Source: Rhyzopertha dominica
Lineage: Eukaryota; Arthropoda; Insecta; Coleoptera; Bostrichidae
Assembly: GCA_025024175.1 (NCBI GenBank)
Contig: QCXZ01000064.1
Location: forward strand, 43,917,325 to 43,981,324
Direction of reading: 5' to 3'
Length of the DNA: 64,000 bases
The notes beneath the pieces are model-generated. The model saw nothing but the letters and a program-made list of their open reading frames with translations, made no database searches and was not told where the DNA came from. Every line of letters begins with the position of its first letter. Position 1 is the stretch's first letter. Both the position numbers and the translations under genes were made by a program. Below, piece by piece: positions 1,472 through 62,750 of the stretch.

Positions 1472-1477
1472 ATCGAA

Positions 1478-11494: not shown

Positions 11495-11552
11495 CTAAAC
11501 AAAAAATAAACAGTATTTATCTTTACTTATCATTAGTTAACATCGTGTTTAC

Positions 11553-19690: not shown

Positions 19691-19691
19691 T

Positions 19692-19709
19692 GTATTATTA
19701 TTATTGTTA

Positions 19710-19783
<74 letters not shown>

Positions 19784-19784
19784 G
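19692..19784. repeat. (ATT)n microsatellite
   Basis: About 93 bp of TTA/ATT repeats with a few GTT and ACT interruptions. The poly-leucine frame across it is an artefact. Confidence 0.95.
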
Positions 19785-21622: not shown

Positions 21623-21849
21623 CACTGACCTGACCCGGCCTGCTTAAAATTTCATTTTAATCTCAGAGGATACTGGCGATGAGAGAAAGAGAGAAATTTG
21701 TAAACACCTGTGTACCTGCCAGAGAACCTTAGCTCCGTGCTCTGGGATGACATGTGGTACCTACGGAATTAGTGACCATTGCTAGACCAGCCTTAACTTC
21801 ACATACATCTCTAGGAGGTATGTGATCATGTAGGACTAATTGTACCATT

Positions 21850-22047
21850 TATTGGTGCCGATATTTTACTAACACATGATACTGCCTGTAACCCACGTGC
21901 TGCGGAAGTTGCTGGCTATCTAAATGTGGACGAGGTGTCTTCTATAAACGTTAAGCACGGAATCCAGATATTAATCCTATAGAATATGTCTGGGACATGT
22001 TAAAACGCCGCAAGACAAGAGAGCAAGCTCCAGAAAAATTTATTTAG
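21850..22047 (+). pseudogene. Tc1/mariner transposase C-terminal remnant
   Basis: Two frames read through a Tc1-type DDE domain end: one gives THDTACNPRAAEVAGYLN (the second catalytic Asp region, usually QDNARPHxA), and after a frameshift near 21,960 the other gives NPDINPIEYVWDMLKRR, the diagnostic NPIExxWxxLKR motif. A stop follows at 22,047. The upstream two thirds are not recognisable. Confidence 0.75.
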
Positions 22048-22674
22048 ATGAGGGGCATTCCTTAAGAATACATTCTAAACTTAATTACATAAATGTTACA
22101 AAGCTTACAATAGTTTAAAAACTCCTAAAGCATCATGTGTTTGTTTTTAATTTTTTATAGATCGTTCATCTAAGCTAGTTAAGCCTCCTAAAGCCTTAAA
22201 AGAATAATAAAAAGTGGGAACAATAAAATGTTCAAGGGTGCCAATAAATAATGAATTAAATAAAATAATAAAGCATATCGCGAACCCTATTTTCCCCTAA
22301 ATTTATACCAGCATTTATAAAAATGCTTGCAAGGACGTGCAATAGTAAGTAGTGTTGGTCGATTCTAAATTTTCATCGATTGTATGCGAAATGATGTAAA
22401 ATGATATATTTTGAAATAACAGTAAAAAAGATAAGAACATATTGATAAGCGCGATAGTTTGATTTCTCGGTAAATTTGTGTGAACCAAAACTCCCAGGTG
22501 CCTGAGACTTATCTCTGTCTGAGACAACAGCCAAATTAATCACAAGCTCTAACGTCAAAGCCTTCAAAACACGCTTCCTTTTCCATAGCAACTCTTACTT
22601 TCATTTAATAACTTTTTGCCCGTCTGACAATTTCTAATGTCGTAATTTTATGATTTTTATCTTTTACCTCTTAC
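22048..22674 (-). other. Intron E1-E2 of copy 1, distal part
   Basis: No gene seen. The Tc1 remnant, the THAP-element fragment and this stretch fill the 2.1 kb intron between E1 and E2. Confidence 0.4.
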
Positions 22675-23009
22675 CTTGGCGGTATATCCAGGACTCGTAG
22701 AAAATCGACAATGTTTCCATTGTATCGACCCACCACTGCCAACAAGGAGCCGACCGTCAGCATGAGGACTGCATACGGAATTGGCACGTGTAGCCCTCCC
22801 ATAAGGATACGAGCTAGCGTACCAATAGCCAAACCACCAAATACGAAGAGGATGAAGTGCGGATGTAAATCGAACGTGCCTCTTTCGTCGTATTTGCTTG
22901 CTTGGAATTCTGACCTTTCAAGATTGATTCTTCGAAGCCTCTTATCTCGTTCTTGACAGTGGACGAGAACTGCAAGTAGTAATAATGTCATTACAAAGAT
23001 CGCACGCAT
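22675..23009 (-). CDS. SLC9C1: Exchanger copy 1, exon E1 (start, signal peptide, TM1-2)
   Basis: The ATG is at 23,009-23,007, followed by a clear signal peptide (MRAIFVMTLLLLAVLVHC). A polar stretch of about 30 residues follows, then two membrane segments starting HPHFILFVFGGLAIGTLARI and VPIPYAVLMLTVGSLLAVVG, and LDIPPR at the donor (AG|GTAAGAG, phase 2). Copy 2 has the same exon with the same donor position and a similar HPDFILFLFGGLAVGTL segment. Cleavage would leave a short extracellular N-terminus. Confidence 0.8.
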
Positions 23010-25010: not shown

Positions 25011-27215
25011 AACTAAAGGTAGTGTGATTGCCATTTATAACATCCCCTTTCCATGTCACAGTGGTTGCTCATCAAAAACCTCCCATAAGACTTGCACTTA
25101 AGACACAATAAGCTATTCGACGCAAAAATGTGTTTGTAACAAGAATTTATAAATAAAATAATGAAAAAAAATAAAACAAAGTCAAATCATAATCGTGAAA
25201 CCAAGTGTTCCTACCATCTTTCACAAAACAATTCAAAACGAACTGAAATATTACTGGATTGACCCTGTAATTTGTAATTTACACCTATACACGGTCACAT
25301 ATGACTGAGTAGGCGGAAACTACTTCTAAACCTTACAGAAATTACACCAACTCTAGATAACTCTTTAGCATTTACTTGCTACAAGTGGTCCGAAATTTAT
25401 GTTAACTATATCAAAATTGCTATGCGAATCAACGTCGTCGTCACAATTTGAACTTGGTCAAGCTGTAGTCTTTTTACCTATTTAATTTATATAGGGAAAT
25501 TAGCAAATTGAGTTAACCAACTATAATTAAGTAGTAAGTAATTTTGATATGCTGTAAAGATGCTTTCATCAACATTTTGCAATAATAAGCTCCCTGTCAA
25601 GTGATTGTCCAAGAGAACCTTGACAAAAATTATATAAGTGGGACGAAAATAATTTGGATGTCCTCTGGTTCAGTTCTAGCGAAATGAACACAAATATGTC
25701 ATTTTGCTGCAGATGTTCTCCTTAATAAGATAATTTGGTCTGACTTTTAGTGTAACAGTTTTTTTTAATTTTTAGTACTAAATTGGTACTATACTAATTG
25801 ATACATTTAGAGCCATAAAAACAGTAATCTAGCAGTAAGCAGCACTGGCACTGGTACTAGTACCAGAAACCAACATACATACTTAACATATCATAGCACT
25901 GAGAATGACCGCTTTTTAGTGGTCGGGGGCGTTCTGCTTTTTTGTAATAAACAATGTGGGACTAGACTTTGACTTGCTTTTTTCATTTGCATATAAGGTT
26001 CTGACCACTCAAATTATTTAGGTGAGTACTACGCAATGCTGTTGATTCCAACTTTTTTCAGGAAACATTTGTTATTGATACGCAGGTGTAACAGATTTTG
26101 ATTTCAGATATGATTAGGTGAAAATAAATTCAAATAAACCAAAATCTTTTCTCATAAAGATATTTACCATCAATTGCAAAACTACAAATGCGCCAAATGG
26201 CGCGCTAATAGGCTCACTATTAATTCAGATTTTTTGAAATACACGCTTTGGCCGATTGTCACTTATGTCTTGGTGGTGTAATGGTATGCACGTTGAGGCG
26301 TCCTTCCAGAGGCCCGAGTTCGATTCTCGGCCAAAGAATCTGTTTGAATTTTGCCTGCTTCACCAATAAAACACAATTACTTTATATCGGGTGATAAATT
26401 ATATTATACTTATTTATTTTATATTATGTAGAAAATTCAAAAATTCAAATTCAAAAAAAAATTTAATTTACCACGTTTTTAAATGGGACTATAAAATTAT
26501 TTCTCCTAACCCTATACAGATTTATAATCCCATGCGAGTTCCTGATCCTATACAGATTGCCAAGAAAATGAATGTCACCGCGGTTCCATCTTAAAAACTA
26601 TGCAAATGAATGGACGCAAACTTAACATTTTCTGTCGTACAAAAGCGGTTTAAATTTGATTAAATTTCAACTCAAAGAGTAGGTTAGCAACTGAATCTGC
26701 TGCTTTGATTGGTATTGCAATGACCTGAAGTTGAACTTACAGTCGGGCCTAATTTTATTTTAGAATTTGTTTTATTTTTATGGTATTAAATATTTTCACT
26801 TTTTGTTTTAACTTTTCAGAATGTGGTTTTTGCTTGTTATTTGTGTGATACGTTAAAAAAAATTATTGAGAATGTTTCTGTTCCTTGAGTTGTTTACATT
26901 ATCTACATTAATTACATCCTTCAAATACTCTACGTCTGCATCATTGTCTACTTGTCAACAATGCAATTGTCTACACCGCGAATCCCTGTGCTTCAGTTAT
27001 CAATTGCGTGTGCACCACGTCTTTTGTTTTAAATCTTGCAAGTATATATTCATAGCTATTAAAAATTAACAATCACAAATTAAACATTAAACATTAAGTT
27101 GGTATATTGCACAAAACGAAAAAGAGCCTCACTTGCCACTTTAAATAACCTTGATGGATCCCGAATTAATAATAGTAAAAGTGTCTTTCAGTAATGTATT
27201 ATCTATATTTTCAAT
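25011..27215. other. Insertion 1 in the LINE; origin unknown
   Basis: About 2.2 kb of AT-rich sequence that interrupts the LINE endonuclease. It contains the tRNA-like block at 26.27 kb and short frames only. I could not define its ends or a target-site duplication. Confidence 0.4.
26268..26338 (+). tRNA. tRNA-Gly(TCC)-like sequence, probably pseudogene or SINE head
   Basis: A good T arm (CCGAG-TTCGATT-CTCGG), a D-arm-like TGGTGTAATGGT and a CTTCCAG anticodon loop (TCC) are present. The acceptor 3' strand CCAAAGA pairs with TCTTGG, which lacks one base, and the anticodon stem pairs poorly. These defects suggest a decayed tRNA or a tRNA-derived SINE. Boxes A and B look usable for Pol III. Confidence 0.45.
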
Positions 27216-27730
27216 TTAGGGACACAGTACAAGAACATTCGAACAGGACTAGGGCGATACTGAGAAAGTATAGAGGAAGTGACTTGGTGTTGACGATAGA
27301 TGCAAACGCGAAGTTGGGCATGTGGAGTTGTGAAAGAACTGATGAGCGAGGAAAAGACATGCTAGTTGCTGAAGGGGATCTACAGATAATCAACCGGCTT
27401 GGGATCCCCGCCACATACCGAGGCAAAACGGGTGTGCACAGCAATATAAATGACTCTGGCAAGCGCAAATATAGGGCAGCGCATCAGCGGATGGAAGGTA
27501 GAAGATATGATAACAAGCAGTGGTCACAATAACCTCATATATATGACGCTGGAGGATGGGAACTGCGATGGTGATGGAAATATTATGTACACACCAAAGT
27601 ACAACCTAAGGAGGGCCGACTGGAAGATGCAGAAAGTATAATATGCGCATCAGGAACAAATAGCAATCGGGCATTCAGACGGCATGGCCAGGGCACTGAC
27701 GAATAAAATCAGGACAGTTATAGAGGGAAC

Positions 27731-44147: not shown

Positions 44148-46121
44148 CTGCAAAAAAAATCAAACGATTGACATGACAAAGAGTGTTTATCATATATTTG
44201 GGAGGCACCGCAGGTTAGTTAGTTATCTCAAACTAACAGCTTGTGAAATATAACTGGGGAGAAATAATTAGTTTAACGAATCATTGTAATTTTTATATAT
44301 AGTTTTTTGGATAGATTAGTTGTGCAGGACAACTCACTTTAAGGCTTTAAAATATAAATACAAAATGAATATGTTGTCAGGAATTCATTGAATAATAAAC
44401 AAAGTACCTTTTCTATATTTGTAATAAGATTCGTAAACAATGTAACAGCAGACGTCTCTTATTGATAAACGAAAATATTTATTTGGAGAAATATACTGAT
44501 GTTCTGTTTGAAGAGACTGCTTACAGGACCGCTGCGTTTTTAATATTCAGTTAGGTATAGGAATTAGCTTGGCTTTCCAGGAAATGGTAACTTGGTAATA
44601 TTGGTTTTCCTTATCTCGATACCTGGATGGGATGCGTCTAACGCTCTGGATTGCAATCACACTCAGTTCAAGATGCATCTTCAAACAGTGAACAGTTTTA
44701 GTAAAGATAATTATTAATCCGTGCATGATTTTTTTTCTGTTGAATACCGGAATATAATAATGTAAACTTTAATAATTGCGTGTTGTTACGAGTTTCCCAC
44801 TTGTGAACATTTCAAGCCATGCCGAATGTTTTATTGACCCTATGCGATATTCTAGAATCTACCAGGACTTAAGTAGAAGAACATCTGATTGAAGAACTAG
44901 TTACATCCAGGTTAGTGATTCAAGTTTGTTGCTTGTATACGAAAATACCCGCCTACGTATATCAAGAAAGACGTTTGACTTTCTGTGAAAGATCAGAACA
45001 AATTACGGTCAGAAATTTTAATAGTTTTTTATTAAGAATGTTAAGGTGGTTTTCTAAAGCAAATACGACAAAAATAAGTCTTTGAATGATCTCATTTTAA
45101 AAGGAAGGCTTAATATTAATAAATCCTTCTATACTTATTGCTGATTCACTTATATACAGTGCATAATATGTCGCAGTAAGAATCTTGTCAACATTAAAAA
45201 GTTTCATTGTATTTTATCATTCCTGATTATCGCAGTTTTTACATAAGTATTTCTTAGATTAAAGTACGATTCAAATTTAAAAAGTATTTAAATTACTGAT
45301 ATTACAATGCCTTGTTTTCTACACATGCATTAGCAGCTCTAGCTTACCCGCAGTTTTATTAAAATTGAGATTGATTGCGCCGGAATGGACAAGAAACGAT
45401 AATATTTGCTTGGTGTATTGTACACACATTTTATAAAAGTGTTTCTGAAAAACATGTGTCAATTATTTTTAATCGGCGATAAAACTGCACAAATTAAACA
45501 TTTTTTTTCTATTTGTATTTTTTCAATAAAAATTTCGAAATTTAATTGAAAATTTGGAAAAGGCAACATACTGAAACGCTGCCTGTAGGTTACATAAATA
45601 AAAATATCGAAACATGTTTGGTAAAACTCGATATCCGTACCTGACGAGCCCCAACAAGGGCGAAACTAGTCGTAGGATCCGGGTGAATTGACCAGAGCAG
45701 ATGTTTATTAATTTATATTTTGCATTGTTATTTAATAGCAACTTGCGGTAGGTACATTGTTAAGGGCCCAAACTGTCGCCTTTTTAAGCAAACAAAAATT
45801 GATCACAAAAATGTATATCTACAAATTATTTTTATTATGAACTAAAAAATAAACAAATACTAAATATTACTCAACTTTATAGTGTATTATAAAATTACTA
45901 TAACTGAAATGGTAGCTGTTTTTTACTCCAAAATTCCTTTATTAACTCGGTTACCGGTTTCGAGGTTTAATGCAACCTCATCATCGGACCAGGAATAGTA
46001 ATGCCATTACTACCCACTAAAAGTTTCACGGATGATGGCGCCACTTGAAAGTTAGCTCATAGCCTATAGGCACAGTATAATATTATATTATACTGTGCTA
46101 TAGAGCAAAACACGACTCTTA
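44148..46121 (-). other. Intron E7-E8 of copy 2, first part
   Basis: A block at 45,930-46,010 (GGTTACCGGTTTCGAGG and CAACCTCATCATCGGA) looks like a common insect interspersed-repeat end of unknown class. The rest is AT-rich with no element recognised. Confidence 0.35.
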
Positions 46122-46531
46122 GGCCCGGTTGCACAAACATGGATAAAATTTGATAAGAGTTTAAGCCAGAGAAATATAGTGGGGAGAACACGCATAGGCC
46201 GACAGCACATCCCAATTTAGCTGGGACACTGTAATGGTCGCCATATTGTCCACAGAAACGTCAAAAATCAGACAGTGTTGTCAAATGGCAGTACTTTTTT
46301 TGAATTAAAAGAATTTTAAGTATACCTATAAAAATGAAAAATTTATGTAGGTAAACTTGTTTACTAGCATTCGCGCAGATCCATGAGCGTTCTCCCCACT
46401 CTAGCTCTCTGGTTTAATCCGCGGTCGTTGCTATAACAGCACCAGTCAGAACACCGCATTCGTGACGTTGCTAGGCAACGCCCACGGATTACACTCGGAT
46501 TAACTTTGATCCGCGTTTGTGGAACCGGCCC
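46122..46531. mobile_element. 410-bp MITE with GGCCGGTT-type ends
   Basis: Left end GGCCCGGTTGCACAAACATG and right end (inverted) GGGCCGGTTCCACAAACGCG, each followed inward by GGAT. TTA lies on both flanks and may be a 3-bp target duplication, as in PIF/Harbinger elements. No coding frame. Confidence 0.6.
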
Positions 46532-47703
46532 TTTAGGGTACCGCACTGCTTGCAACGTTCGTGCCCCTGCAGCATTTCCAAGACCTTCACCATACAGCAG
46601 TACGATTATCCGTTAATTCTTGATTTGAAAAATGTTTCAAATTCAATAATCGTTTAGATATTTTAGAATGTCATGTATTTTGAAAGAAATTTAAAGTAAC
46701 AATGAAATTTGTTGTTCTGGATATTAAAAAATAGAAATTGGTTATAAACAATAAGAGCGACTCCTTTACAAAAAAAAGGAGGGAAAACAATGTAGAGTTG
46801 TTTTAATTGGCGAGCTCTTGCACGTGTTAAAAATTAACACATGTGTTTCTGAAACACCCATTATAGCGACAAGAACTATAAAATTAAAAGGAGGTATGCA
46901 GGTTGCGAGCCGCATAAGCCTTCGACTACCTTAAGATGCACAAGTAAATTGTTGATCAAGGATTCCAAGATAATGTGTTTATTAATAGTAGTCAGTTTCT
47001 GGAAAACAGAATACTTGTTTGTAAGTAAATGCAAATAGCAACAGATCAAGCAAAATTAACCGACAGTTAAAATTAGGTACCTACAATGAAACGACAAACC
47101 AGTGAGGGCATCTGCAAGAAACTCTTAAAAATTATCTGTAATTAATGTTTTAGTGACGTTTACAAAAAAAACGCATGAAGAAAAAAGAAATAAAAAAAAT
47201 CAAAAAGAATCAGCCCTAAAAAGTACTCAAAAGTCAGAAAGATGTGTTTGCTATTAAAAACAGCTTATAACGCAAACGATAAAAAGGCACCCCTTTTTAT
47301 TTTAAACGACTCGGTGAACAAGAATATGGTGTTTTCGTGCAAAAAAGTGTGAAAATTTGTACGAAGTATGGATGAAATGTTTTCGTATTATTCAAAGTAC
47401 CTTTTGATGCATTTTTTTTACTTTTCACTTTACAAATGGCTGCCACATTCAAGTAGTATTTATATTGCTTACTACCGGATCAACCTCGAACGACACTACA
47501 ACTCTATTTTTCTTGCTAACACGCATAACGGTGAAGCGCCGTACCAATATCGCATACAGAAAAAATATTTTCTATATTAACCAAGATGGTTTAGGTGCAT
47601 TGAAGCACGGTATGCAATTACGTATAAAACATTACAATAAAATATAATACATCTTTTAACTTAATTTTTTATTAAACAAGTAAGGTTACTTATACCTGCT
47701 TAC
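46532..47703 (-). other. Intron E7-E8 of copy 2, second part
   Basis: AT-rich; short frames at 47,368-47,647 have no recognisable domain. Confidence 0.4.
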
Positions 47704-48034: not shown

Positions 48035-48134
48035 CTGGAAAGAGAAAGAAAACTTAAACAAATAGAATAAATATTGAAATAAATAAAAATATCACAAACA
48101 TATGGTCAAAAAGTTGATATATACACCTCAACCA

Positions 48135-48181
48135 ACTGCAGATAGTACTGTTTCGCTGTCATTACAGCTCATCAGTGCAGT
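48135..48181 (-). ncRNA. Hammerhead ribozyme motif, minus strand (sense to exchanger gene)
   Basis: Core in order: ACTGCA, CTGATGA, stem II GCTG-TAATGA-CAGC, GAAA, short stem III, ATC, TGCAGT. Stem I pairs ACTGCA with TGCAGT. Stem III has one mismatch compared with the other two copies. The outer half of stem I is lost by a deletion of about 11 bp, so activity may be weak. It sits about 100 bp upstream of the E7 acceptor. Confidence 0.6.
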
Positions 48182-48446
48182 TTAGACAGCACAGCATAGA
48201 CATGCATTTTAATGTATGTTGGTTCTTGCCCGCTAGCAAAAAGTGCCGTGGGGGCCTGCTGTCAAATTGAAGTATGCAGTTGCATGCCAATTTGTCAGGC
48301 TACAGGTCACTTCCTTTAGGAAGTAGTACCCGTTAAGGCAGCTAGGTGGCTTTGTCATCATGTCAGCGTAATGCTGACAGATGGCATTGCCATCCTAAAT
48401 TCTTACTTTCATCATACCATTGCTTTGGTATATAAGCAAAACCAGT

Positions 48447-48552
48447 TCTATGCCGTGTTGTCTACACTAGACCTAAACTGCACTGATGAGCTGTAATGTC
48501 AGCGAAATAGTACTATCTGCAGTTGGTTGAGGTGTAGACAGCACAGCATAGA
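48447..48552 (+). ncRNA. Type I hammerhead ribozyme, complete motif
   Basis: All conserved parts are present: stem I ACTGCA (48,477-48,482) with TGCAGT (48,518-48,523), CTGATGA (48,483-48,489), stem II GCTG-TAATGT-CAGC (48,490-48,503), GAA (48,504-48,506), stem III ATAG-TA-CTAT (48,507-48,516) and C at the cleavage site 48,517. An internal loop follows, then an outer helix of about 21 bp (48,447-48,467 with 48,532-48,552) with one C-A mismatch and one G-U pair. This is the minimal type I form known from metazoan retrozymes and Penelope-like elements. It is antisense to the exchanger gene. Confidence 0.8.
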
Positions 48553-48560
48553 CATGCATA

Positions 48561-50285
48561 GACCTTACAAAATTACTTATCGACCCACGGCGCTGTGTGT
48601 GGAAATCTCAAATAAAAAATATTGATTACTGTACTAGAAAGTCTTTAAGAACCCGGAAACATTTCATAAAGTCATCAAATAGTCCCAGGTGGACATTTGC
48701 AGCAGTATTTGTAAGAGTTCGTACTATGTTTGTTAATACAATGAAACGCTTTAAATAGATGTTCTTTATCTTGGGTCAATGAAACTACTCATGCCTAACT
48801 GGTCCCACCTACTCGCTCAACAAGGATAACAAGACAACAGGATAATATCAAACTAAAATACTAATAATTGAAGCTGGACAACTGACATCGTCAACTGGTT
48901 GGATTATCACATGCGACACTTTACCGACTCAGTCGGAAGATATTCTTTGGTCGGAAGTTTTTGTGAGAAGCACGTGTAATTGATATTCTATCTCCGTTAC
49001 CTTTTCGGATTGAAGCTCCGTGATTTTTTAACGGATTGTCCGATTTCAATTTCTAACCGCGAGCGTGCTGCTACATAAATTTTTGAATTCATAGCGCCTG
49101 TGGTGCCAACTTTAATTTTCAAAAATATATCACCTTTTAAAAATAGGTACTTTCGTAACTAATTTTTACCCGAACATTATCCAAAGCTTCTAACTTTACG
49201 CGTTCAAACATTAGGGAAGGAACTTGTATATACTAAACACTGCTAAATCTAAAAACGGAATACTCTTTTAGAGATTTCAGCAATCTGGTCACTTTAGTGT
49301 ATTACTGGAACATAAGCATTCGCTACTTTATTGGTTTTCTCCAAACAAAGAATGCCGTGGCAGGAAGTATTTCATAAAATGCATTAAAAGATTTAATTGA
49401 AAACTGCATATATATTTGGTTATAGCGTCAGAACGCTTTCTTCCATTTGCAAATTGGATATTTTCAGTTTTTTTTTTAATTTGGTATAATGAAAGCATGT
49501 GTAGGTACATGTAAAGTATGTGATAATGTAAAAAAAATAAAAATGCAAACGCTAGAAACTCGCGCTTAAACAGCAGTTCTAAAGATGACGGCACGTCGCA
49601 TATCAACATATATATCGTTTTTAGGAGACCGTTGGCTGTAATAAGGCACTTATTGACCCCTTACGGCATTGTTTGGTTATTTATCTCGCTAAAATCAAAA
49701 CTTCTACGAGTGATTACACCAGTCAATAATTGTAGAGTTTGTGAACTTATAAACACATATGTACAGACCTCATAAGTTCCAAGACATATTTATTTATCTA
49801 TATACAATTCACTGAAGCTACGAGCAGCAGCTCTAGTGCATCGTTATTTTTGTCAAATAAACTAACAATTTCTATACACTCGTTCATGAATGGTAAGCAC
49901 TATTTTGGATTGCTAACTCTCAACGTTAGATAGTGATCAGTTACAAGATTCAAACTATACTAATTAAATTTGTCAGGGAGGTAAAAATACACGCTAAAAG
50001 AAGACTGAATGCCGATTAGGTTGCCCCAGTTTTCAATGTATTAGAGATGCAGTGATGCATGAATCATTTTAAACTTTTAAGGAAAAAAATTGAAGTGATT
50101 TAACATTTCCTGATAAATATCTAATTTTGGAAAAAAGTTCTCAAATTTTCCCTATGCATTTTAAAAGAGGGCTTGGAAAACCCTTAAAATTACTCATCTC
50201 TTCCTCCTCATTCAAGCACTAAAGGTTGGAGTTGCTAAGGTTAGAGGGTTATTCTGACAGCTTCAACGTTACATACAACATGTCC
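48561..50285 (-). other. Intron E6-E7 of copy 2, middle part
   Basis: AT-rich, no element recognised. Confidence 0.4.
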
Positions 50286-50365
50286 TCTAAAATAAATTTT
50301 ACTCGAATTCGTCACAAANGTTATTGAAGGAAGCTCGTTTTCACTATACACCTGATATAACTAAG

Positions 50366-50526
50366 ATGCCGGTTCATTTTTGGTGTTTTGTGCCTGATTA
50401 CACGAAGACATCGTACAAAATTTGTGTGCGAGGGCAACTGGCGATTTAAAGCGTAAAAAACAATGGCTTAAAGCAGCCAGATGTAACATGCCCAAATCAA
50501 ATTTCTGCTGGGAATATCATTTTAAT
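50366..50526 (+). pseudogene. THAP-domain exon remnant
   Basis: The ATG at 50,366 is followed by PVHFWCFVPDYTKTSYKICV. After a frameshift near 50,445 the next frame gives DLKRKKQWLKAARCNMPKS and CWEYHFN before a GTAAGT donor. The WLKAAR and final HF motifs fit a THAP domain, and it resembles the remnant at 28.0 kb. Confidence 0.6.
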
Positions 50527-50604
50527 GTAAGTTAAGATCGAGGTTCTATTAATAGATAAATGCTGTATATCGTTTGTAGGAAAATGTGTTATCGAGCTTT
50601 CCAC

Positions 50605-51120
50605 GACGTTTTACCGGTTCGAGTGATCGGCAACCTCAGAGATCTGTAAGTGATTCTGTCTTGGTTCGACTTCTGCGGCAAACTATCAAACTGACTCGGA
50701 TCTCGCGCGCAAACCGTATTGATGCCGTGGTGGTCCCTTATCAGTACCTGTTCATTTATTGGCAATTTTTGTATTAGCAAGTGCCGATAGCTAGGCTTTG
50801 CTTAGTTTAAGAGTTTCCTCTTGCCGGTTAAAGTTGTCCTTGTGTTTTTCAATCTCTATGGCTTCCCGGACTAGTCGACAATGATACCCGGCGGTCGAAG
50901 CAAGTACTTGCGTGTCCTCGAACAGTATTTCATGGTGTCCGTTGCCGAGCGCATGTTCAACTGCAGTAGATTTTTGAACGAACAGGCACTGATGAGGGAC
51001 CACCACCATCAATACGGTTTGCGCGCGTCAGCTTAACAGTTTGCCGCAGAAGTCGAACCAAGACCAAGACATACCTCTGAGGATGCCGGTCACTCGAACC
51101 GGTGAAACATCAGGGATAAT
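50605..51120 (-). mobile_element. Penelope-like element 3' remnant with inverted flanks
   Basis: Minus-strand 51,012-50,791 encodes STAVEHALGNGHHEILFEDT and VREAIEIEKHKDNFNRQEET, the end of the GIY-YIG endonuclease domain of Penelope-like elements. About 140 bp at 50,610-50,755 is an inverted copy of 50,975-51,115 (shared GTTCGACTTCTGCGGCAAAC), so the coding tail sits between inverted arms. The RT and the rest of the endonuclease are absent. Confidence 0.6.
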
Positions 51121-51930
51121 ACCCAACCGACTACGGCCAAAAAGCCCGATAACACAGTTTTCTACAAACCTTGACCGCGAAAGCCTAAACCAATATTTGT
51201 ATATCGTTTGTATTATTAGCTGGAGGAAGACATTAAAATTTGCACATGTTATAGATTGATGGGTGGAAACGTATTAATGAAGTCGGACGTTGTTCCACAC
51301 ATTTTAAATTGTTAAACAGGTCGGAAAATAACCGTAAGTTAGTCCTGTGCCTCCGGTGCCTATAAAAAAAGAGAAAGAAAACGCTTAGTAGAAAAAGCTG
51401 TAGCTACTTGTTAGCAACAATTTGTCAATCAGCTTTCAAATTTAGATGCTACTTCTACCAGTAAGTTTTAACTATATTAGTGATTTTTATGCATCCACAA
51501 TAAACATTATTTGTACAGTTCTATGCTTGCTTTCTAAACTTAAATATTTTTAGGTTTCTTAGCAGCTCAGATGCAACAAATAGTGGAAGTGATCGAAGGC
51601 ATTTTTGAAACACAAAAAAGCCTTAATGTTCATGTTCGTCCTTCTGAAAGTGGAAAACACAAAGAAAACATTTCAAGCAAGCAGCAGCAGTAAAACTGAT
51701 AAATTAGAGTGAAGTTCATTCGCACCAAGTACTAGTACAGCTGATTTAATGCGTTTGTCGTAATTAAAATACATCGTTCTGGTTACCCTGCACAGTTTTC
51801 CAAGATGATTAAATTAGTGTCGGTACTCCTTAGTAGCAATTGTTGTGTATTTAACTCAAAATGGAATTTATGGCAACTATCTAATTGCACAATACCACTT
51901 TCACACTCCACCCACCATTGAATCACGCAC
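51121..51930 (-). other. Intron E6-E7 of copy 2, near E6
   Basis: A stretch at 51,550-51,710 could be the 3' end of a decayed frame followed by a stop; no domain recognised. Confidence 0.35.
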
Positions 51931-52105
51931 CTGCTTCTGAAATAGTTTATGTAGACCTTCCAAGTCTATCAAAATCTCTTCCGTGTCCATAGCTATTTCA
52001 ACTGCTTGATAAAGAATCCGTACACCCTCTTTAGACAGCATTCCGTTTTCGTACTGTCTTCCATAAGAGATCTTCTTTGCCTTCAGTATTCTAGATCTAG
52101 CTTCT
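51931..52105 (-). CDS. SLC9C1: Exchanger copy 2, exon E6 (linker helix)
   Basis: 175 bp, acceptor TTTCACAG and donor CAG|GTGCGT. It encodes EARSRILKAKKISYGRQYEN, GMLSKEGVRILYQAVEIAMD and a final helix ending QKQ. Nearly identical in sense to copy 1. Confidence 0.8.
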
Positions 52106-52171
52106 CTGTGAAACAAATATGTTTTAGCAAAATTGGCAAATAGTGCTACAAACTACTCGTATAAAACCTAC

Positions 52172-52360
52172 TTTGTCATCTCGGCTAGTTCCTTGGCCGT
52201 TGGTTCAGTCGGTATTTCCTTTTGGCAATCTGGACATGTGGTTAGTCTGTATCCCAAATAGTAGTCGTCGTCTTCGTCATCATCAACCAAAAGTATTTTG
52301 TACGGATGTTTCAAAACGGTTACTTCGTTTACCATGGGCCAGTTTGCATCAGCAAGAAAC
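52172..52360 (-). CDS. SLC9C1: Exchanger copy 2, exon E5 (cytoplasmic linker)
   Basis: 189 bp, acceptor ACAAG and donor AA|GTAGGT. It reads FLADANWPMVNEVTVLKHPY, an acidic run, DYYLGY, a CPDC pair and AEMTK. The frame and length match copy 1. Confidence 0.8.
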
Positions 52361-54478
52361 CTTGTTTGTAAAATAATATATTAAAATAAGTTTTCAAAAA
52401 CAAATAGGTTTATTTTACCTAATGCTTCCCTATTAAATAATAATAATAATAATAAACTTCGTTCGGAAATAGGCTTATAGCGACATAAGATGTTTAAGAA
52501 AAAATCACAAATTCAAAAGTTAACTGACTTAAAATTAAAACGTTAGGACTCGTGTTTCCAGGAAGAAAATGCAACTGAGGCGATATGTTGTGTGACTGCG
52601 ATATACTGTGAACGATAGATGGTACTAAATGAATAGAAAAGATGGAATTCGAAGGTTCTGTGGGCAGGGAAAAATCAGAAAGTTAAATATTGACACCGGT
52701 GGCGTAAGAATTATTGATAATAGCAGAGGAGTTATAACACGATATATATCGGCCGCCAACATCGACATCGGAGGGGGCTGGGAGCAAGCATTAATCTTGA
52801 CAAGTAAAGAGATGCTGACAGAAGCTGCGAATCTGCAGGCTGGCACTGGATATATTGATTTCTTGGGGAAGAAGAAGGGCATTGTACAACCCTTTGGATA
52901 TATTTCTATAGCAGGGGATAAAACGACAAATATCTGCTACCATAGACGGATTTATGAGGTAGTGGAGGGGGCAGTAAGGGTTTAAGCATCACAAAATTAA
53001 AATTTGGTGAACAAGCAACAGACTCATTTAAGACATTGTTAAATTTCGGGAAATTTTTTAAATCCTCATTAAACAAAATGGTCACTTTAAAGAAAGTGAC
53101 CATTATAAAAAGTTATATATAAAATTCAGTTTTGCTTCGTGAGTGTCCCTGACCGCTGACCTGAGCGCTGGCTTTTTCGCAAAAGAACCACCAAAGATAA
53201 GCCGATAACTAACGATGTAGATACAGAAATAACAATTACAACATACTTTAATGCACATTCTACTAATCTTTCTCAAGACGCGGAAAAAATTTAGGTATGT
53301 CTAGAATTCGTATACTCAGAATTGAACAAAATAACTGATACGCTCACAAATTGCAATTTATTCGGTATTTATGAAAAGTAGAATAGAACAACGCACAATT
53401 TTTACGAGTGGTTTCTGTTAAAATCGCAAACAATACTTCTGACCGGCGATAGTCTCAATTAGAAAAGGAAATTTTGATGTTTTTGGAATTTTAATGGATG
53501 TTGTGTAATTCAAGTTGATACTGTCACTACATTTTTATGAAGAAAATCTTAATAGCAAGATATCTCTTTTATTTTAAGAATCGTTATCTTTGCAGAATAT
53601 TAATTATTATATATTTGTAAATAATGATGTATTTTATATTTTTACGCGGATATTTGTAATAAATTTAACCCAAAAACACAATGATGCGTTTAAAATTGCC
53701 ATGGACGTACCGAAGAGGGCGGGAAAAGGGGGGCGTTGGGCAGCTGCCCCTCCTTGGACCAAAGCTGCCATCTCTAAGCCGTTTCTACCTCCTATGCACT
53801 TAGATGGTCAATTATATGTCTACAGCGAAAAGCTGTTTTATTTACATGAATAATAAATAAGTCAAGTGTTTTTCACGACGACCCACACTTATTAGAGAAG
53901 ATCATTATCTTCTCTAATAAGTCGTTGTCCAATGGTTTCTAAGCTTAATCGATGCCATGTGCGTTTGAAGCTGTGACTGCAACATACCTACATTCGCCAG
54001 TTTCCCTATAAGGATGGTTCAACTATACATGATCCTGTTATCAGTGTAATACGACTGCTTGAACATATCAAGCAGGTACCAAACTAAATTCGCCTTGCAT
54101 TTTAACAATTAATACAGAGAAGACTGCAGAGGATTCCGTGCACGAAAAATTTCAAGAAGGAACATTAATGAAGATTTAATGCATATGCTCTCGATAACTT
54201 CCGATCCAGTTATATCCAACTTACGAAAGTTAAATTCAACAAAAACAAACGGTTTTCCAGAGGAAGTTAAAGCAGGATTCATTAAAAGCCAGTTCGGAGA
54301 TGATATTAGTTCCTCGTCGAGTGAAAAGTTTTAATTAGCAACAAACGTTATTTTCTATGTTTAATGTTCGAGAGGAGCACTAAAGCTCAGCGTGAATCGG
54401 AAAATAAAAGAACGCTCATAATCTAAACTATCTACATATATTAACTCTTGCTACAACGAATGAATAACCGAACCGTAT
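52361..54478. other. Intron E4-E5 of copy 2, part near E5
   Basis: A plus-strand frame of 118 codons at 52,629-52,985 has no recognised domain. A frame ending at 54,334 (NEDLMHMLSITSDPVISNLR, then FGDDISSSSSEKF) looks like the C-terminus of an unknown mobile-element protein. An inverted repeat, AGAGAAGATCATTATCTTCTCT, lies near 53,895; it is split here only by naming it. Confidence 0.35.
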
Positions 54479-55580
54479 TTGACAATGGTTGAACCGGAAG
54501 TTACAAGAAGTACAGAACTGACCAAAATTTATAAAGACGGCTCAGGCGCATTGTTGCCACCCAATCACTACGGGGTTGGAACGTCCCGATTACCAAAACT
54601 TCCCCTCGAGACAACCCCTTGGTCCTTGGTTGACTTCCTCATCAGCCCCAGTACCCTCTTCGCTACACACCGATGTATGTGGGCCAATGCGTGTTCCTTC
54701 CCACGGGAAGAAGCTCTCTATTTTGTAACTTTTATAGATGACTTTTCTGGATGGTGTGAGATACGTTTCATTGCACACAAGAGCCAGGTTCTGGATGAGT
54801 TCAGAGACTTCATAGCCCTTATAACTGCCCACCGAAGAAATAACATCAAATATCTGCAGTCCGATAACGGAAGGGAGTACGTGAACCACGACTGACGAAT
54901 TGCTAAAGAGAAACGGCATTGTGCGCCGCTTGACGGCTCCGTACAACCCTGAACAGAATGGCGTGGCCGAAAGGCGCAACAGGACGCTAATGGACACAGC
55001 GAGATGCCTCTTGATTCAGTCAGGGTTACCGATGGTTTTCTGGGCCGAAGCCATCAACACAGCGAACTTCATCCGAAACATGTCGCCCACAAGCAAGCTC
55101 AAGGGGAAGAGCCCATACGAGCTGTGTCATGAGAGACCCCCCGGACGTAAGCGGATTAAAACGCTTTGGTGGAGAAGTCTTCGTAATGGACCGATCAGTA
55201 GGCAGATCAAAGCTAGAGCCGAGATCCAAAAAGGGAATCTTCGTGGGCTATAGCACTGAGTCGAAAGCGTATAGGATTTGGTTGCCCGGGGAGGGAAAGT
55301 TAATGGTGTCCAGAGATGTACGGTTTCTGGACGAAACTCCAGTGTATTCAGAAGATGTGTACGAGGGCTTGTTTCCCGAAGAACCGGACGTAAGCATCGA
55401 CTTATAGCGTGGCACTGAACGAGAAGTTCAGACCACCCAGGAGGTCCAAGAGAACACGGACGAGGTACGTGACGACGTAGAAGAATTATCGGACAAAGAC
55501 TTCTTAAGATTCCCTCCGGAAGTCAGGCAAGAGGCGCCAGTTGACAACCGAGAGAAGAGGTCCCAGCAGACCACGTAAAG
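54479..55580 (+). mobile_element. Ty1/copia retrotransposon fragment (integrase region)
   Basis: Three frames follow one protein. At 54,479-54,895: YFVTFIDDFSGWCEIRF and LQSDNGREYVNHD, with the first two catalytic Asp. At 54,900-55,130: GIVRRLTAPYNPEQNGVAER, with the catalytic Glu, and SPYELCHERPP. At 55,129-55,407: KKGIFVGYSTESKAYRIWLP and MVSRDVRFLDE. One frameshift lies near 54,890 and one at a run of six C near 55,137. An acidic linker continues to about 55,580. No gag, RT or LTR. GC content is higher than in the surroundings, which suggests a young copy. Confidence 0.85.
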
Positions 55581-55594
55581 AAAGGACTCACCTA

Positions 55595-55952
55595 CTTTTG
55601 ACTTTCTTTCGGATTTCTTTGGAAATGCTGGCCGGCACATCTTCCCCTGCAGGCAGACGCTGCATTCAAAGTCACTTTTTGCGCCCTTGACATAATAATA
55701 AAGGTTTACACGATTCGCGGTCAGCACAACATTTCTGTCACAGTCTACGACCTCCGCCTTTGTTTTGTGGAATACAACGGTGTACCAACATTTAATAGTA
55801 TATTTCTTTTTAAACATTACTGGTGTTTGCTTTATTAATTTGGCCCAGCTAGATTTCACAAATGGACCACTGAGCCACGGCTCGAATTGACAAGACGACC
55901 TGAAAATATCAGCGTATTTGCTAGACTTTTGTTGATTCTTTGCTGTTACCAT
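55595..55952 (-). CDS. Unrecognised exon-like ORF
   Basis: From the ATG at 55,952, with a favourable context (AAAAATGG), about 119 codons run without a stop to a plausible donor (AAAAG|GTAGGT). It is Lys/Ser-rich with Cys pairs (CSVCLQGKMC) and a WAKLIKQ / CWYTVVFHKTKAEVVDCD central part. Beyond the donor the frame runs antisense to copia and is likely meaningless. I recognise no family. It could be a first exon of a mobile-element gene nested in the exchanger intron. Confidence 0.35.
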
Positions 55953-56540
55953 TTTTGTTAGTTATTTGCTTGATTTATTACTAAAGCGTCTACAATTTCA
56001 AGCAAATCGTTATAAAGGTCAATTACCTGAAAAATGTTTACAAGATTACGTTAATACAAACCTTGAAGTTGAGTAAGTACTTAATTTTTACTATTCACAA
56101 TAAAACAAACTCGTGCAGATCTTAAAAACAATCGATTAGACCTGTTGAACAGCTTAAAAGTTACTCAAAGTGAAGTTAGATCGCCCAAGGTATGCAAACA
56201 CAAACCGATGTTTTCAGGTTGGTTCAACTTTTGCGCCTTTCAAACGCCAACGTCGAGTCAATGCGCAAATATGCGCCGCAAGATTTTGAGGCAGCTATAC
56301 ACTATACTAGTGCTCCTGACCATAATACGATTGCAAGGGGTGTTTAACGCTGAAGCAATTTAGCGGGTTATTATTGCGGCTTTTTTTCGTTTTAATGGTT
56401 TGATGCATTAGCCAGTACTAATGTTGATGTCTGATTAAACGTATTTTTACTTCTTATATATTTTGCAATATTCAATTGTCAGTTTGTCATGCAATTTGTG
56501 AAAATGCCATACTTAAATGTCAAACATCGTATGTATCTCC
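55953..56540. other. Intron E4-E5 of copy 2, middle
   Basis: No gene recognised; a short frame at 56,145-56,363 has no domain. Confidence 0.4.
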
Positions 56541-57385
56541 TAGACAAAAACCGCTGCAAATTAAATCAATACTCCCACATCCAATTATCAAAATGACATT
56601 TACGCTTTTATTTTTGAACACTATACGATCAGTAATCAGGTTTTGAGCATTTTTTCTCTCTACACATTTTTTTTAAGACAAACGGTTCTCGTGATACCAA
56701 AAATACATAAATTTTTAAAATCATTTGTTTCAAATAACTAGAAAAATATTAACTTAACAAAAAAATTGCAAGAGTGCTTTTCGATTAGAAATTTGATTTT
56801 CTGTATAATACCAAAATTAAAAAAAATCGTTTCGGTAGATTCCAAAATACGTTTTTTTGCAAATTTTTCGAAAATGCCAAAATTTTTGATAAATTTTATT
56901 TCCTATCTGATTTTGAATATATTAAGTATATTCGGAGATATTTAGGATAAACCGTTTTTTTGAATTGAGGCTTTTTTGGCAAGATTTTTTAAACAGTTTG
57001 CTGCACCAAAAATTTATAAGAACTAATAACACTCGCAGTTATACTACTAATCACATATAAAACGAAAAAAAAATAAAAATTTGCAAAAAGGGTAGTATCC
57101 TACAATTTCACCCACTTCCCGATACCCTACTTACCCCAAAAACAATAGGTCGCTGTGGGTAGTAGAGATTCATATGTATGCCAAATTTCAAGTTCATATA
57201 TTAAGTCTTTCGAAATTTAACGCGTCCACACACAAAACCAGACACCCAGACAAGAAATTTTTGCTCAAATTTTGTTTTTTTGCGTTTTCGGCCATTTTAA
57301 ATCGATTGAGCAAATAAAAAATTTTGAAAATTTTTTTCGCGATACAGTACTTCCCATCTATTGGATGTAGAAGTAGTGGAAGTAA
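56541..57385 (+). repeat. Interspersed repeat R-18, unit 1 (forward)
   Basis: Starts AAAACCGCTGCAAATTAAAT and follows the 61.15 kb copy through the ACGGTTCTCGT, TTGCAAGAGTGCTTTTCGAT and CAATAGGTCGCTGTGGGTAG landmarks to TTGGATGTAG-like sequence. No coding frame. It lies less than 200 bp from E4. Confidence 0.65.
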
Positions 57386-57567
57386 ATGGAACAGTAAAAA
57401 TAACCAAGCCGTTTTAAATCATCAAACCATATTTTTTTACCTTTTTATGAAGTTATTCAATATTTTAAAACAACTCAGAACCCGAATAGGTATAGAGCAA
57501 GTACAATAATGCTAAAATGTTGCTTACGTCAATACTGTTAAATTAAAAAGAAACTTATATTACGCAC

Positions 57568-57878
57568 CTATTCATTTTTAGTATGTTAATTATCTTCTCT
57601 CTTCTCAAAAGTACATATTTCATGCAGTTGTTCATATTAATTTTTCTTGCCATCGACAAATCAGATAATCCAAGAAGTCGAAGTACTAGCGGCATGGTGG
57701 TAGCATTTATGACTAAGGTAAGGAAAACGATACCGAGTGTGTGTATCATTAAAGCATGGCCCACATCATGCATCTGAGGGTGATGATGAACTAAGTGTGC
57801 AAGACAGTAAGAGACAACACCGTGTAGACCTCCCCAAATGCATACAGCCGTTTGTTTAAATGTAATGCCATAACCTAC
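57568..57878 (-). CDS. SLC9C1: Exchanger copy 2, exon E4 (last NHE helices, Arg site)
   Basis: 311 bp, separated from E3 by a 64-bp intron. It encodes VGYGITFKQTAVCIWGGLHG and two further helices, then GLSDLSMARKINMNNCMKYV. The NHE Arg position is His (codon 57,822-57,824), as in copy 1. Confidence 0.85.
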
Positions 57879-57942
57879 CTGTAAAGAAAACATTTCCTAA
57901 TTAAAACTAAGGTTTATCGAGTAGATAGAGTGATATACTTAC

Positions 57943-58358
57943 CCGACTCAAAATTGGTGCAAGTAATATGAATGCGACAAACCTTCCAAAGATGGCCAAG
58001 GTATAAACGACTAACATTAGTGCGAAATTGTTCAAGAGCTGATGCCTGATCAGAATTCCAGTAGTTTTAACTCCAAACATGATAAATACAGGGGTATTGA
58101 TGAGAAAGGCAACCATCTCCCAGAAATTAATTAAAAGCTGTTCAACGTCAACTCTCAAACTGGCTCTTTCTATGCTGAGCATCACTCCTAACGTTGCCAC
58201 GCTTATTGTGCCTGACACAGAAAGTACGAATTCTCCTATGTAGTAAGTCATGAATGTTGATACCAGGGTAGTCGAAATAACAATTATTGCATCGTTAAAC
58301 AACAGCCGGTTTATTAGAAAGGAGCTTAGCTTTCCGGCTAGAAATCCAAATAAAATGC
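57943..58358 (-). CDS. SLC9C1: Exchanger copy 2, exon E3 (NHE membrane helices)
   Basis: 416 bp, acceptor TTCCAG and donor CGG|GTAAGT. It encodes ILFGFLAGKL, TTLVSTFMTYYIGEFVLSVS, FLINTPVFIMFGV and AIFGRFVAFILLAPILSR, matching copy 1 along its length with one extra codon. Confidence 0.85.
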
Positions 58359-58499
58359 CTGGAAAAATATCTTTATTAGATAATATAAATAACAAGGATA
58401 AAATATACTTAACAAGCACGAATTAAGTACACATAAGAGCATACATCAATTTCTTTAAAGCTTAGATATATAGATATTATAAGAACTGCAATTTTTAAA

Positions 58500-58740
58500 A
58501 TGCATGTCTATACTGTGCTGTCTACACCTCAACCAACTGCAGATAGTACTATTTCGCTGTCATTACAGCTCATCAGTGCAGTTTAGGTCTAGTGTAGACA
58601 ACACGGCATAGAACTGGTTTTGCTTATATACCAAAGCAATGGTATGATGAAAGTAAGAATTTAGGATGGCAATGCCATCTGTCATCATGTCAGTGTAATA
58701 CTGACAGATGGCATTGCCATCCTAAATTCTTACTTTTAAC
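58500..58740 (-). mobile_element. Second copy of the hammerhead-bearing repeat, with a perfect-armed palindrome
   Basis: Reverse complement of the right half of the 48.1 kb element. Beyond the ribozyme it has a long palindrome, about 58,651-58,735: 31-bp arms (GTAAGAATTTAGGATGGCAA... and its complement) around a small hairpin TCAGTGTAATACTGA. It lies in the E2-E3 intron of copy 2, ending about 140 bp upstream of E3. Confidence 0.7.
58507..58612 (-). ncRNA. Type I hammerhead ribozyme, complete motif, sense to exchanger gene
   Basis: On the minus strand: outer helix, internal loop, ACTGCA, CTGATGA (complement of 58,570-58,576), stem II GCTG-TAATGA-CAGC, GAA, stem III ATAG-TA-CTAT, C at the cleavage site, TGCAGT (complement of 58,536-58,541), internal loop and outer helix. 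All core bases match the hammerhead consensus. The motif would be transcribed in the exchanger pre-mRNA, within the intron before E3. Confidence 0.8.
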
Positions 58741-60085
58741 TGCAATTTTTGTTTACATAATAGCGCAATATGATAGCTACTTCTGTATACTTATTTTCAT
58801 CAATATGCCCTTTAGTACGCAAACAACATTAGAATTACGTTTAATTAAACGTCATATGTAANTAGCAATTAGCAGTTTCGTATTATAAAATTCTGGTGAA
58901 TTACAAAANAACTGAATTTGAAATTGAAATTATGCATTTGAATTTTATTTGTAATTTAATTCTATGCATACAGAATGTATAACAACTTTAAATTATAGGT
59001 TATAAAAAGTTGCAAGATTTTGAAATGTAGCACATCTAATTCAAATAGTGCAATTCTAAATAAAATATTTTGAAGCCACCACAACCCCGTTTTGTACGAG
59101 AATTAGCTGGTACTTACGCATTTCAATTTGAACACCGTGTATTTTTTTTCAGATTTCAAAAAAACTAATGCAAACTAACAATTGAAGAATTCAAGGCTTC
59201 GTACCCTTCGTACTACAGGATTTTACTTCAAATTTCATATAATATGTCAGGACAGTGATTAATTTAATTGTTTGTGACATATTATAGTAATAGGACTGTT
59301 AATGTTACTTGTCAGCTTTTTGACGGATTATTACACTTTTTATGTTCTATTTTCAAGAACTTTCGTTAATTTATAATAAAAACTGATATAAAAACGGATA
59401 AATGTACAGCAAATTCATTCTTAAATTACAACTTTATACTGGCGAAAACAAAAACTTCAGAAATTTTTGTACCTTTGACCTTGACCTTCAAGGAAAAAAT
59501 TCTTTTTTTATTTTGTGGTCTGTATATACTATTTTGGTAATAATGGAAAATCACATTCGTCTCGAGTTTTCACCACTCTCTTTCTAACATTACATCCTAC
59601 AAAACGAAGTTTTTCAAATGGCGCCCTCTGTAGCTATTAAGAGAAACCAATTTTGGAACAATTTATCATTAATATTAATCTCTTAAAACCCCTTTAAAAT
59701 GAGTCCTAGTTCGTTAAATTTGGTTAAGGCGTTTAGAAGATATATATCATCTAGAAGTTTGCAGGGCATTTTGGCTTGTAGTGACATTACCACGGCAATC
59801 AGATAAAAAATGTGGCAACGAAACTTTTAGATTCTAAAAATTCTATCTTCCACCTACATTTTATCGGCGAATTTTAGATTTAATATTATAATATTTTTAG
59901 TGAATTTCTCTGGTGCCTTTTTATCCAAAAAAATTTTCCTCTCCCATCACCCTGTAAATCACCCTGCATATATAGGTATATTTCTTATTAATATTATTGC
60001 AGCAACTAAACAAGTCCAAACTCAAAATTTACTTGCGCTAGAATTAATTCTAAAATTTAAGCAACTGAGCCGTTACATGACTTAC
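58741..60085 (-). other. Intron E2-E3 of copy 2, rest
   Basis: AT-rich; two Ns; no element recognised. Confidence 0.4.
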
Positions 60086-60940: not shown

Positions 60941-62750
60941 CGGTCAAACCTGAAGTCACCACCTCAATGATTTAAAAATTCGCAGAAAGTAGAGGAATAG
61001 TTGATGCAGGTTAAAAATTTGCGTGTATGCTTCTAGTAAAAGCCTAAATACCATATCAATCAGACACAAAAAAAATCGGTGTCGGTCACCCTGAAATCAT
61101 CCCCTGAAAGATTAAAAAATTTGCAAGATTCCAGAGGAATGATGCAGGTTAAAAAACCGCTGCAAACTGAATCAATACGTCCACATCCAATTGTCAAAAT
61201 GGCATTTACGCTTTTATTTCTTATATTATACGATCAATAATGAGGTTTAGAGCATTTTTAGTCTCTGCGTATTTTTTTAAACAATAACGGTTCTCGTTAT
61301 CAAAAATACATAAATTTTTAAAAATCTTTTTTGTTTTGTAAATAACTCGAAAATTATTAACTTAATTAAAAAATTACAAGAGTGCTTTTCGATCAGAAAT
61401 TTCATTTTGTATATAATATCAAAATTGGACAGTGTTCAAAATCCAGTTTTTTTTAATATTTCTAAAACGTCAATTTTTTGGGAAACAAATAAAACACGTT
61501 TTGTGAGAAATTTTATTCCCTATATGATGGTATTTTCATATATTAAGTATTTTCAGAGATATTTAGGAAACATAATAGCAAAATTTTAAAAAAGTCGTAA
61601 GAGCAGGGTCCAAAATAGGTTTTTTGGAAATATTTCGAAAATGTCAAAATTTTGAATAAATTTTCTAAGACACTTTTTGTGAGAAATTTAGTTTCCTATC
61701 CGATATTTTCATTTTTTGAATATATTAAATGTATTCGGAGATATTTAGGAAAAACAGTTTTCTTTAACTGACGGATTTTTGCTAATATCTTCTAAACCGT
61801 TTGCCTCACCGAAAACTTATAGGAACTAATAATACTCGCGATTAAATCACACGCTAAAAAGAAAAAAGAAAAATTTGCAAATAGGGTAGTTACCCCCTAA
61901 TTTAATCCCCTTCCCTACACCCTACTTACCCCAAAAGCAATAGGTCGGTTTGGGTAGTTGAGATTTATTTGCATGTATGCCAAATTTCAAATTCATATGT
62001 TATCTTTCGAAAGTTATCGCGTCCACACACAAACCAACAGACACACAGACAAGAAACGTTTTTTTGCTCAAATTTTGTTTTTTTTTACGTTTTCGACCAT
62101 TTTAAAACTAATGAGACAATACAAAATTTTTGAAAATTTTTTTCGAGATACAGTACTTCGCATTCGTTGGATGTGGAAGTAATAGTGTATATAGTAATTG
62201 ATGTGGTGAGTTCAAATTAAAAAATTAACCAATAAGTAGTAGCCCGTATTGCAAAATTGATACAAGACAGTAATAAGAAAATTTGCACGTGGGCCACTAA
62301 TGCAAGCATAAATAACATATCAATCAGACATGAAGAAATTCAGAGTCGGTCACCCTGAAATTACCCCCTCAAAGATTCTAAAAATTCGGAGACTAGAGGA
62401 ATAATTGATACAGGTTAAAGATTTGCACGTGGTCCTCTAATACAGTCACCCCGAAATACCTCCTCAAAATTCACATTATCTAAAGCAAATCTGTTCAAAA
62501 ATTGTTGCACAAGTAACAACAGAATCTTATCATTTCCACACTTTTTGAAAGATAAATGAACCATCGCTATTTGCTTAGGTAATTTTGGGAATCAAATTGA
62601 TATTATCAACACAGCGTGCGCTGTAAAGTAGCCTTATGCAAAGCGAACCGATTCCCACTATGCTCTATCTCTCTCTAACGCGACTGGCTACGGATCGGCC
62701 CGCTCCACACGGCATCGTGCGTATACCTCTCTATCTACTACCGTGGTTAT
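60941..62750 (+). repeat. Interspersed repeat R-18, longest copy, with satellite-like subrepeats
   Basis: It has three parts. Subrepeats of about 110 bp, with AGAGTCGGTCACCCTGAAAT-like starts and a GAGGAATAATTGATACAGGT-like end, occur at 60,945-61,150 and 62,300-62,470. Unit 1 (61,150-62,190) also occurs at 56.5 kb and, inverted, at 17.9-18.7 kb. Unit 2 (62,475-62,745) also occurs at 18.7-19.0 kb. No coding frame. The class is unknown; non-autonomous. Confidence 0.65.

Follow-up and report, generated by a model that had tools for sequence, protein, structure and literature searches.

We report two insertions of a hammerhead-bearing repeat, locus A (48,122 to 48,559) and locus B (58,497 to 58,737), in a 64,000-nucleotide (nt) stretch of the Rhyzopertha dominica genome (assembly GCA_025024175.1, contig QCXZ01000064.1, positions 43,917,325 to 43,981,324; hereafter the window). 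Most probably they are copies of one non-coding retroelement, small and non-autonomous, of the same kind as the metazoan retrozymes without long terminal repeats (LTRs); it would move by the cycle discussed below. Both lie in introns of an exchanger gene, as an earlier reading of the letters alone (the sequence-only reading) had noted; this gene is of the SLC9C type and occupies the minus strand. The same reading had recognized three hammerhead motifs of one repeat family. The repeat is indeed shared, but the first motif of locus A (A_L) is inverted relative to the second (A_R), and the two lie in one insertion, of which A_L makes up the inverted 5' part, so that the three motifs represent two insertions.

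The motifs sit exactly where they had been placed, at 48,135 to 48,181 (A_L, minus strand), 48,447 to 48,552 (A_R, plus strand) and 58,507 to 58,612 (B, minus strand). They share CTGATGA, a GCTG/CAGC stem II with a 6-nt loop, GAA, A15.1 and U16.1, C17, and a stem I of ACTGCA/TGCAGT, which reaches 7 bp once a flanking A-T is counted. Scored with a descriptor of the type I hammerhead (CUGANGA, stem II, GAA, an A...U stem III, H17 and stem I), A_R (match at 48,483, plus strand) has 7, 4 and 4 pairs in stems I, II and III, B (58,576, minus strand) has 7, 5 and 4, and A_L (48,175, minus strand) has 7, 5 and 1. The full core with a tiny stem III that had been described for all three thus holds for A_R and B, but a T-to-C change leaves A_L with one contiguous stem III pair instead of four. 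Similarly, the 21-bp outer helix is kept in both long copies, except that 20 of its 21 positions are paired, with one C.A mismatch in each. The predicted hammerhead also has unpaired bases in stem I and the 6-nt loop II, candidates for loop 1-loop 2 tertiary contacts, and cleavage of A_R is predicted after the C of ACTATC. The two long copies are 98.4% identical over 189 bp. Of their 3 differences, one lies outside the hairpin, one in loop II, giving B its fifth stem II pair, and one in the outer helix, where a G-C pair becomes G-U. None of the three is a two-sided change, and we could not uphold the compensating structure that had been invoked. As judged from their sequence, A_R and B carry a type I hammerhead with an intact catalytic core, the cleavage itself being a prediction.

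The claim that such motifs are unlikely by chance stands for the core and stems of A_R and B. Using dinucleotide shuffles of the window as the null, a rule demanding at least 4, 3 and 7 pairs in stems II, III and I (the order used for all rules below) finds two matches in the window, whereas 0 of 5,000 shuffles contain any. Relaxing stem I to at least 6 pairs admits 1 shuffle in 5,000, and a looser 4/2/4 rule admits 37. Since A_R and B are copies of one repeat, they amount to one observation against chance. A_L, on the other hand, passes only a 3/1/4 rule, as do 19 of 500 shuffles, and the bare pattern CTGATGA-N8-24-GAAA is weak evidence when taken alone (3 matches where 0.64 are expected, a number also reached by 3 of 100 shuffles). 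A scan tolerating one mismatch in the core lists six places, namely the four motifs described here, one of them discussed later, and two with a core mismatch at 14,013 (plus strand) and 60,274 (minus strand); in the viral contigs scanned, the ribozyme pattern had 0 matches. The covariance-model search that had been proposed as a check gave sub-threshold hammerhead matches at the motifs. Searched with Rfam over the full window at E ≤0.05, hammerheads make up three of the eight matches, including B (58,522 to 58,592; 28.0 bits, E 0.008) and A_L (48,145 to 48,192; 29.2 bits, E 0.04), whose best model is that of type III. A_R (plus strand, 48,467 to 48,537; 24.8 bits, E 0.0012) surfaced only in a search restricted to 901 bases.

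In both A_R and B, GAA and C17 enclose 10 nt, AUAGUACUAU, that are fully palindromic; A_L carries ACAGUACUAU in their place. By base pairing, the monomer can form a 3-bp stem III with a GUAC loop, whereas pairing between two ribozymes could give a helix of 10 bp. For a hammerhead of Aedes aegypti, the legend to Figure S8 of PMC3088659 proposes a dimer joined by a stem III of that length, and PMC7229834 describes axolotl retrozymes with a weak helix III and a palindromic tetraloop that cleave better as dimers. The element resembles these Aedes aegypti and amphibian dimer-type hammerheads (PMC3088659, PMC7229834), by description only, in its palindromic stem/loop III, here fully self-complementary, but its monomer also allows a stem III of 3 to 4 bp. 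In A_L, the inverted setting and the T-to-C change allow an alternative stem III, in which ACAGUAC pairs with GUGCUGU in the flanking arm over 7 pairs, including one G-U. The motif could accordingly be read as a type III hammerhead (48,135 to 48,200, minus strand), which is probably a coincidence.

Locus A (sense, plus strand), mapped on a doubled unit, consists of a 5'-inverted segment followed by just over one unit. The inverted segment (48,122 to 48,185, minus strand), which carries A_L, corresponds to unit positions 329 to 266. The direct part starts at 48,183 to 48,186 (unit 328 to 331), runs through the next unit and stops at 48,559 (unit 352), the 3' end of the insertion lying at ATGCAT; with 374 to 380 nt it spans 1.06 to 1.08 units. 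The two segments abut, sharing a 3-nt TAG microhomology (48,183 to 48,185). The unit boundary is marked by a direct repeat, TAGACAGCACAGCATAGACATGCAT, at 48,183 to 48,207 and again at 48,535 to 48,559 (plus strand); when extended to 48,180 to 48,207 and 48,532 to 48,559, the copies are identical at 27 of 28 positions. They define a complete unit of 352 nt (48,208 to 48,559, plus strand; 44% GC). Because 352 of the 374 to 380 direct nucleotides serve to define the unit, independent support for the junction comes from the 25 to 28 nt that precede it and the last nucleotides of B. The absence of a protein frame that had been reported is borne out, the longest stop-free run in the linear unit being 58 codons. 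Folded as a circle, the unit has a predicted minimum free energy of -142.4 kcal/mol, compared with a shuffle mean of -95.3 (standard deviation 5.7; z -8.3), and none of 100 shuffles reaches so low a value; of its bases, 70% are predicted to be paired, against a shuffle mean of 64%.

Locus B (sense, minus strand) is a 241-bp insertion bounded by a perfect 13-nt target-site duplication (TSD), AACTGCAATTTTT, at 58,484 to 58,496 and 58,738 to 58,750. Among random pairs of 20-nt flanks, 0 of 3,000 reach a match of 13 nt and 3 of 3,000 reach 10. Its direct part covers unit positions 168 to 355-357, thus running up to 5 nt beyond the unit junction, and its 5'-inverted part covers unit 202 to 146. The two meet at a 5-nt microhomology, TGACA (58,680 to 58,684), and overlap by 30 to 35 nt of template. 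At this overlap lies a perfect inverted repeat of 35 bp with a 17-nt loop (58,650 to 58,736). Matches to microRNA families at about 58,643 to 58,745 correspond to this hairpin, which the inversion made, and were not taken as microRNAs.

The borders of the two insertions have several features in common. On the unit, the 3' ends of the two direct parts lie about 5 nt or less apart (352 in A, 355 to 357 in B), immediately 3' of the hairpin's outer helix; the predicted cleavage site lies uncut inside both parts; and in A the last 28 nt of a preceding unit (27 of 28 identical) continue straight into the full unit. Since the cleavage site was crossed uncut in both loci and the unit junction in A, the template would have been a closed circle or an uncleaved multimer and not a linear monomer with its end at that site. 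Moreover, in two of two insertions a 5'-inverted segment is joined to the direct part at a short microhomology. An inverted 5' segment beside a direct part is the twin-priming pattern known from work on long interspersed nuclear elements (LINEs), in which a second primer, supplied by the other target strand, is extended on the RNA upstream of the first cDNA. The borders of A and B, as read from the sequence, fit target-primed reverse transcription with twin priming. The fit is less clean for B, with its overlapping segments, than for A, where they abut, and the pattern, drawn from two insertions, is a lead and not a rule.

The cycle that we envisage for the element would begin with its type I hammerhead cutting a transcript, probably in dimeric form in view of the palindromic stem III, AUAGUACUAU. 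A host ligase would close the RNA of about 352 nt into a circle. At a nicked target, a reverse transcriptase supplied by another element would then copy this circle, or a multimer left uncleaved, in a target-primed reaction. In the model proposed in PMC7229834 (Cervera & de la Pena 2020), circular ribozyme RNAs return to the genome as copies, with LINEs or Penelope-like elements (PLEs) as possible helpers; whether target DNA or a small RNA primes the reaction is left undecided there. A broader proposal, which we hold only tentatively, is that animal retrozymes may integrate in a LINE-like manner, by a target-primed and twin-primed reaction that takes circular or multimeric ribozyme RNA directly as its template and has a fixed start just 3' of the hairpin. 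In a literature search by text, and not by sequence, none of the papers listed mentions both twin priming and retrozymes.

The assignment to the retrozymes draws on what PMC7229834 describes for those of animals: type I hammerheads in tandem repeats of about 170 to 400 nt, without LTRs, with a GC content below 45-50% and flanked by TSDs of more than 4 bp; they were expressed as circles in those animals that were tested, and they occur in many phyla, including crustaceans and insects. Likewise, the element has a type I hammerhead, neither LTR nor protein, a strongly self-paired RNA, a unit length of 352 nt, within that range and next to mussel and axolotl constructs called 353, a GC content of 44% and, at B, a TSD of 13 bp. 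It differs in that the larger insertion holds just 1.06 to 1.08 direct units and in that both insertions open with an inverted 5' segment, a feature unmentioned in the parts of PMC7229834 available to us. The pDo500 satellite of Dolichopoda cave crickets (PMC2837043) is also a non-coding hammerhead repeat of an arthropod, for which single and double forms were proposed, but it is a satellite of about 500 bp that makes up about 5% of one species' genome, whereas the present copies are dispersed insertions. By these sequence features, the element is a probable further family of the retrozyme kind.

Several observations weigh against the retrozyme assignment and its cycle. The sample is two insertions within the 64-kb window; the unit length of 352 nt is read from locus A alone, and the window holds no array longer than 1.06 to 1.08 direct units. 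We infer cleavage, the circle and the source of the reverse transcriptase. At locus A we found no TSD of 7 nt or more; given the close likeness of A and B, age hardly explains this, and a target deletion or another insertion route is possible. No hammerhead match in the whole window reaches an Rfam gathering cut-off. In the 47-nt core, the hammerhead fold is less stable than the minimum (-7.7 against -11.4 kcal/mol in A_R, -6.3 against -14.1 in A_L and -7.2 against -12.3 in B) by a plain energy model, which takes in neither loop contacts nor dimers. According to PMC3088659, Aedes and Nematostella hammerheads for which a dimeric form was suggested failed to cleave in vitro. Finally, hammerhead mutants of a PLE are described as unaffected for insertion in vitro (PMC11167929), and cleavage thus need not belong to integration.

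An unlikely alternative, but the one that survives best, is that A and B are fragments of the pseudo-LTR of an autonomous PLE and not a separate retrozyme. PLE pseudo-LTRs are described as holding type I hammerheads in tandem (PMC6155905, PMC7761336), other parts of the window hold fragments of reverse transcriptase of unassigned clade, and about 2.5 kb away, at 45,623 to 45,693 (plus strand), lies a fourth hammerhead, of another family, that the sequence-only reading had missed. It has a CTGACGA core, a 4-bp stem II, a GTC cleavage triplet, an extended stem I with a bulged G, and a stem III consisting only of ACTAGT (2 bp, self-complementary). With 37.3 bits for the Rfam model HH9 (E 7.9e-6, whole window), it scores best of all the hammerheads, below the gathering cut-off of 52. 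The case for it rests on this score, as a descriptor match with such stems is weak evidence (83 of 5,000 shuffles have one at 4/2/3 and 1,179 of 5,000 at 2/1/3). In its sequence, the motif resembles the minimal hammerheads, usually lacking helix III, that are described for PLEs (PMC6155905, PMC7761336). The present element shares the type I core with PLEs, whose reverse transcription likewise starts internally (PMC11167929). However, stem III has four contiguous pairs in both intact copies of the present element, longer than in the minimal PLE type, and the frame with reverse transcriptase and GIY-YIG endonuclease expected of a PLE is absent from the 352-nt unit, in which no stop-free run exceeds 58 codons. 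Among the 20 open reading frames of the window run through Pfam, none has a GIY-YIG domain; RVT_1 pieces occur at 5,592 to 6,599, more than 40 kb away, and an endonuclease piece at 27,179 to 27,532. A GTTTCG...CATCATC stretch at about 45,960 to 45,990, which we considered as a possible decayed PLE hammerhead, was not listed by the one-mismatch core scan. Hence, of the kinship that had been suggested with metazoan retrozymes and PLEs, the former is retained, and the latter link is only indirect, through the minimal hammerhead at 45,623.

It is very unlikely that the motifs are intronic ribozymes in the service of the host, tuning expression of the exchanger by cutting its pre-mRNA. This idea draws on their setting: B and the inverted A_L lie in sense with the gene, 86 nt lie between locus A and a likely splice acceptor (48,035), and intronic hammerheads are known in human genes. 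Against it, the type I stem III of A_L is broken, and the copies look recently inserted, with 98.4% identity and an intact TSD at B. The gene itself is identified by an exon whose best PDB match is the "Sperm-specific sodium proton exchanger" (E 9.5e-20) and a voltage-sensor exon matching the same protein (E 5.6e-6), and on the minus strand Pfam places Na_H_Exchanger first, with Ion_trans and cNMP_binding downstream; a protein search with the exchanger exon gave two matches. Judged by similar exons, the window holds two tandem SLC9C-type genes on the minus strand (11,000 to 23,000 and 37,000 to 63,000), with 66-69% DNA identity between counterpart exons across three pairs.

Slightly less probable still is a miniature inverted-repeat transposable element (MITE) or other DNA transposon whose terminal inverted repeats hold a hammerhead by chance. 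The ends of locus A do suggest it, being 71-nt inverted repeats (48,115 to 48,185 and 48,473 to 48,543) of 93% identity, but the borders largely rule it out: homology to B continues for 16 nt past the right repeat, the ends of B are not mutual inverted repeats, and the 13-bp TSD is long for a cut-and-paste element by the usual norm, so that neither inverted repeats at both ends nor a short TSD of fixed length is found. The least credible of the alternatives, a chance likeness in an ordinary repeat resembling a short interspersed nuclear element (SINE), can appeal to the scores below Rfam gathering and to the 37 of 5,000 shuffles passing the loose rule, but not to the stem lengths actually present (0 of 5,000), a hammerhead at the tip of a helix paired at 20 of 21 positions, a second hammerhead family in the window or a unit size that fits retrozymes. 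A SINE with an RNA polymerase III promoter was also rejected, a relaxed B-box search finding no match on either strand of the unit and an A-box search giving three, on the sense strand only.

Other repeats and mobile elements are present in the window. Another dispersed family (17,946 to 18,732, 56,546 to 57,306 and 61,152 to 62,745), apparently in introns of both exchanger genes, has copies that are mostly 76-78% identical, with one stretch at 92%. Nested direct and inverted repeats cluster at 16,960 to 17,745, and a possible MITE at 46,120 to 46,540, seen by eye only, has inverted ends GGCCCGGTTGCACAAAC ... GTTTGTGGAACCGGCCC. An integrase frame at 1,472 to 2,413 (plus strand), with an rve domain and a weak chromodomain, possibly belongs to a recently active Maverick-like element. 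Its relatives are 93% and 85% identical, and a search with it found 7,542 proteins; among the 120 listed, the only match whose name gives an organism is from the wasp Leptopilina heterotoma.

To return to the retrozyme-like element, its insertion borders can be read, and they bear on how such RNAs are primed and on whether the enzyme comes from a LINE or a PLE, through their nearly coincident 3' ends, the 13-bp TSD, the continuity across the unit junction and across an uncut cleavage site in the larger insertion, and the 5' inversions in two of two copies. If integration by twin priming on circular or multimeric ribozyme RNA is true of animal retrozymes, loci A and B would preserve fossil evidence of integration, a step left undecided in the retrozyme work cited here.

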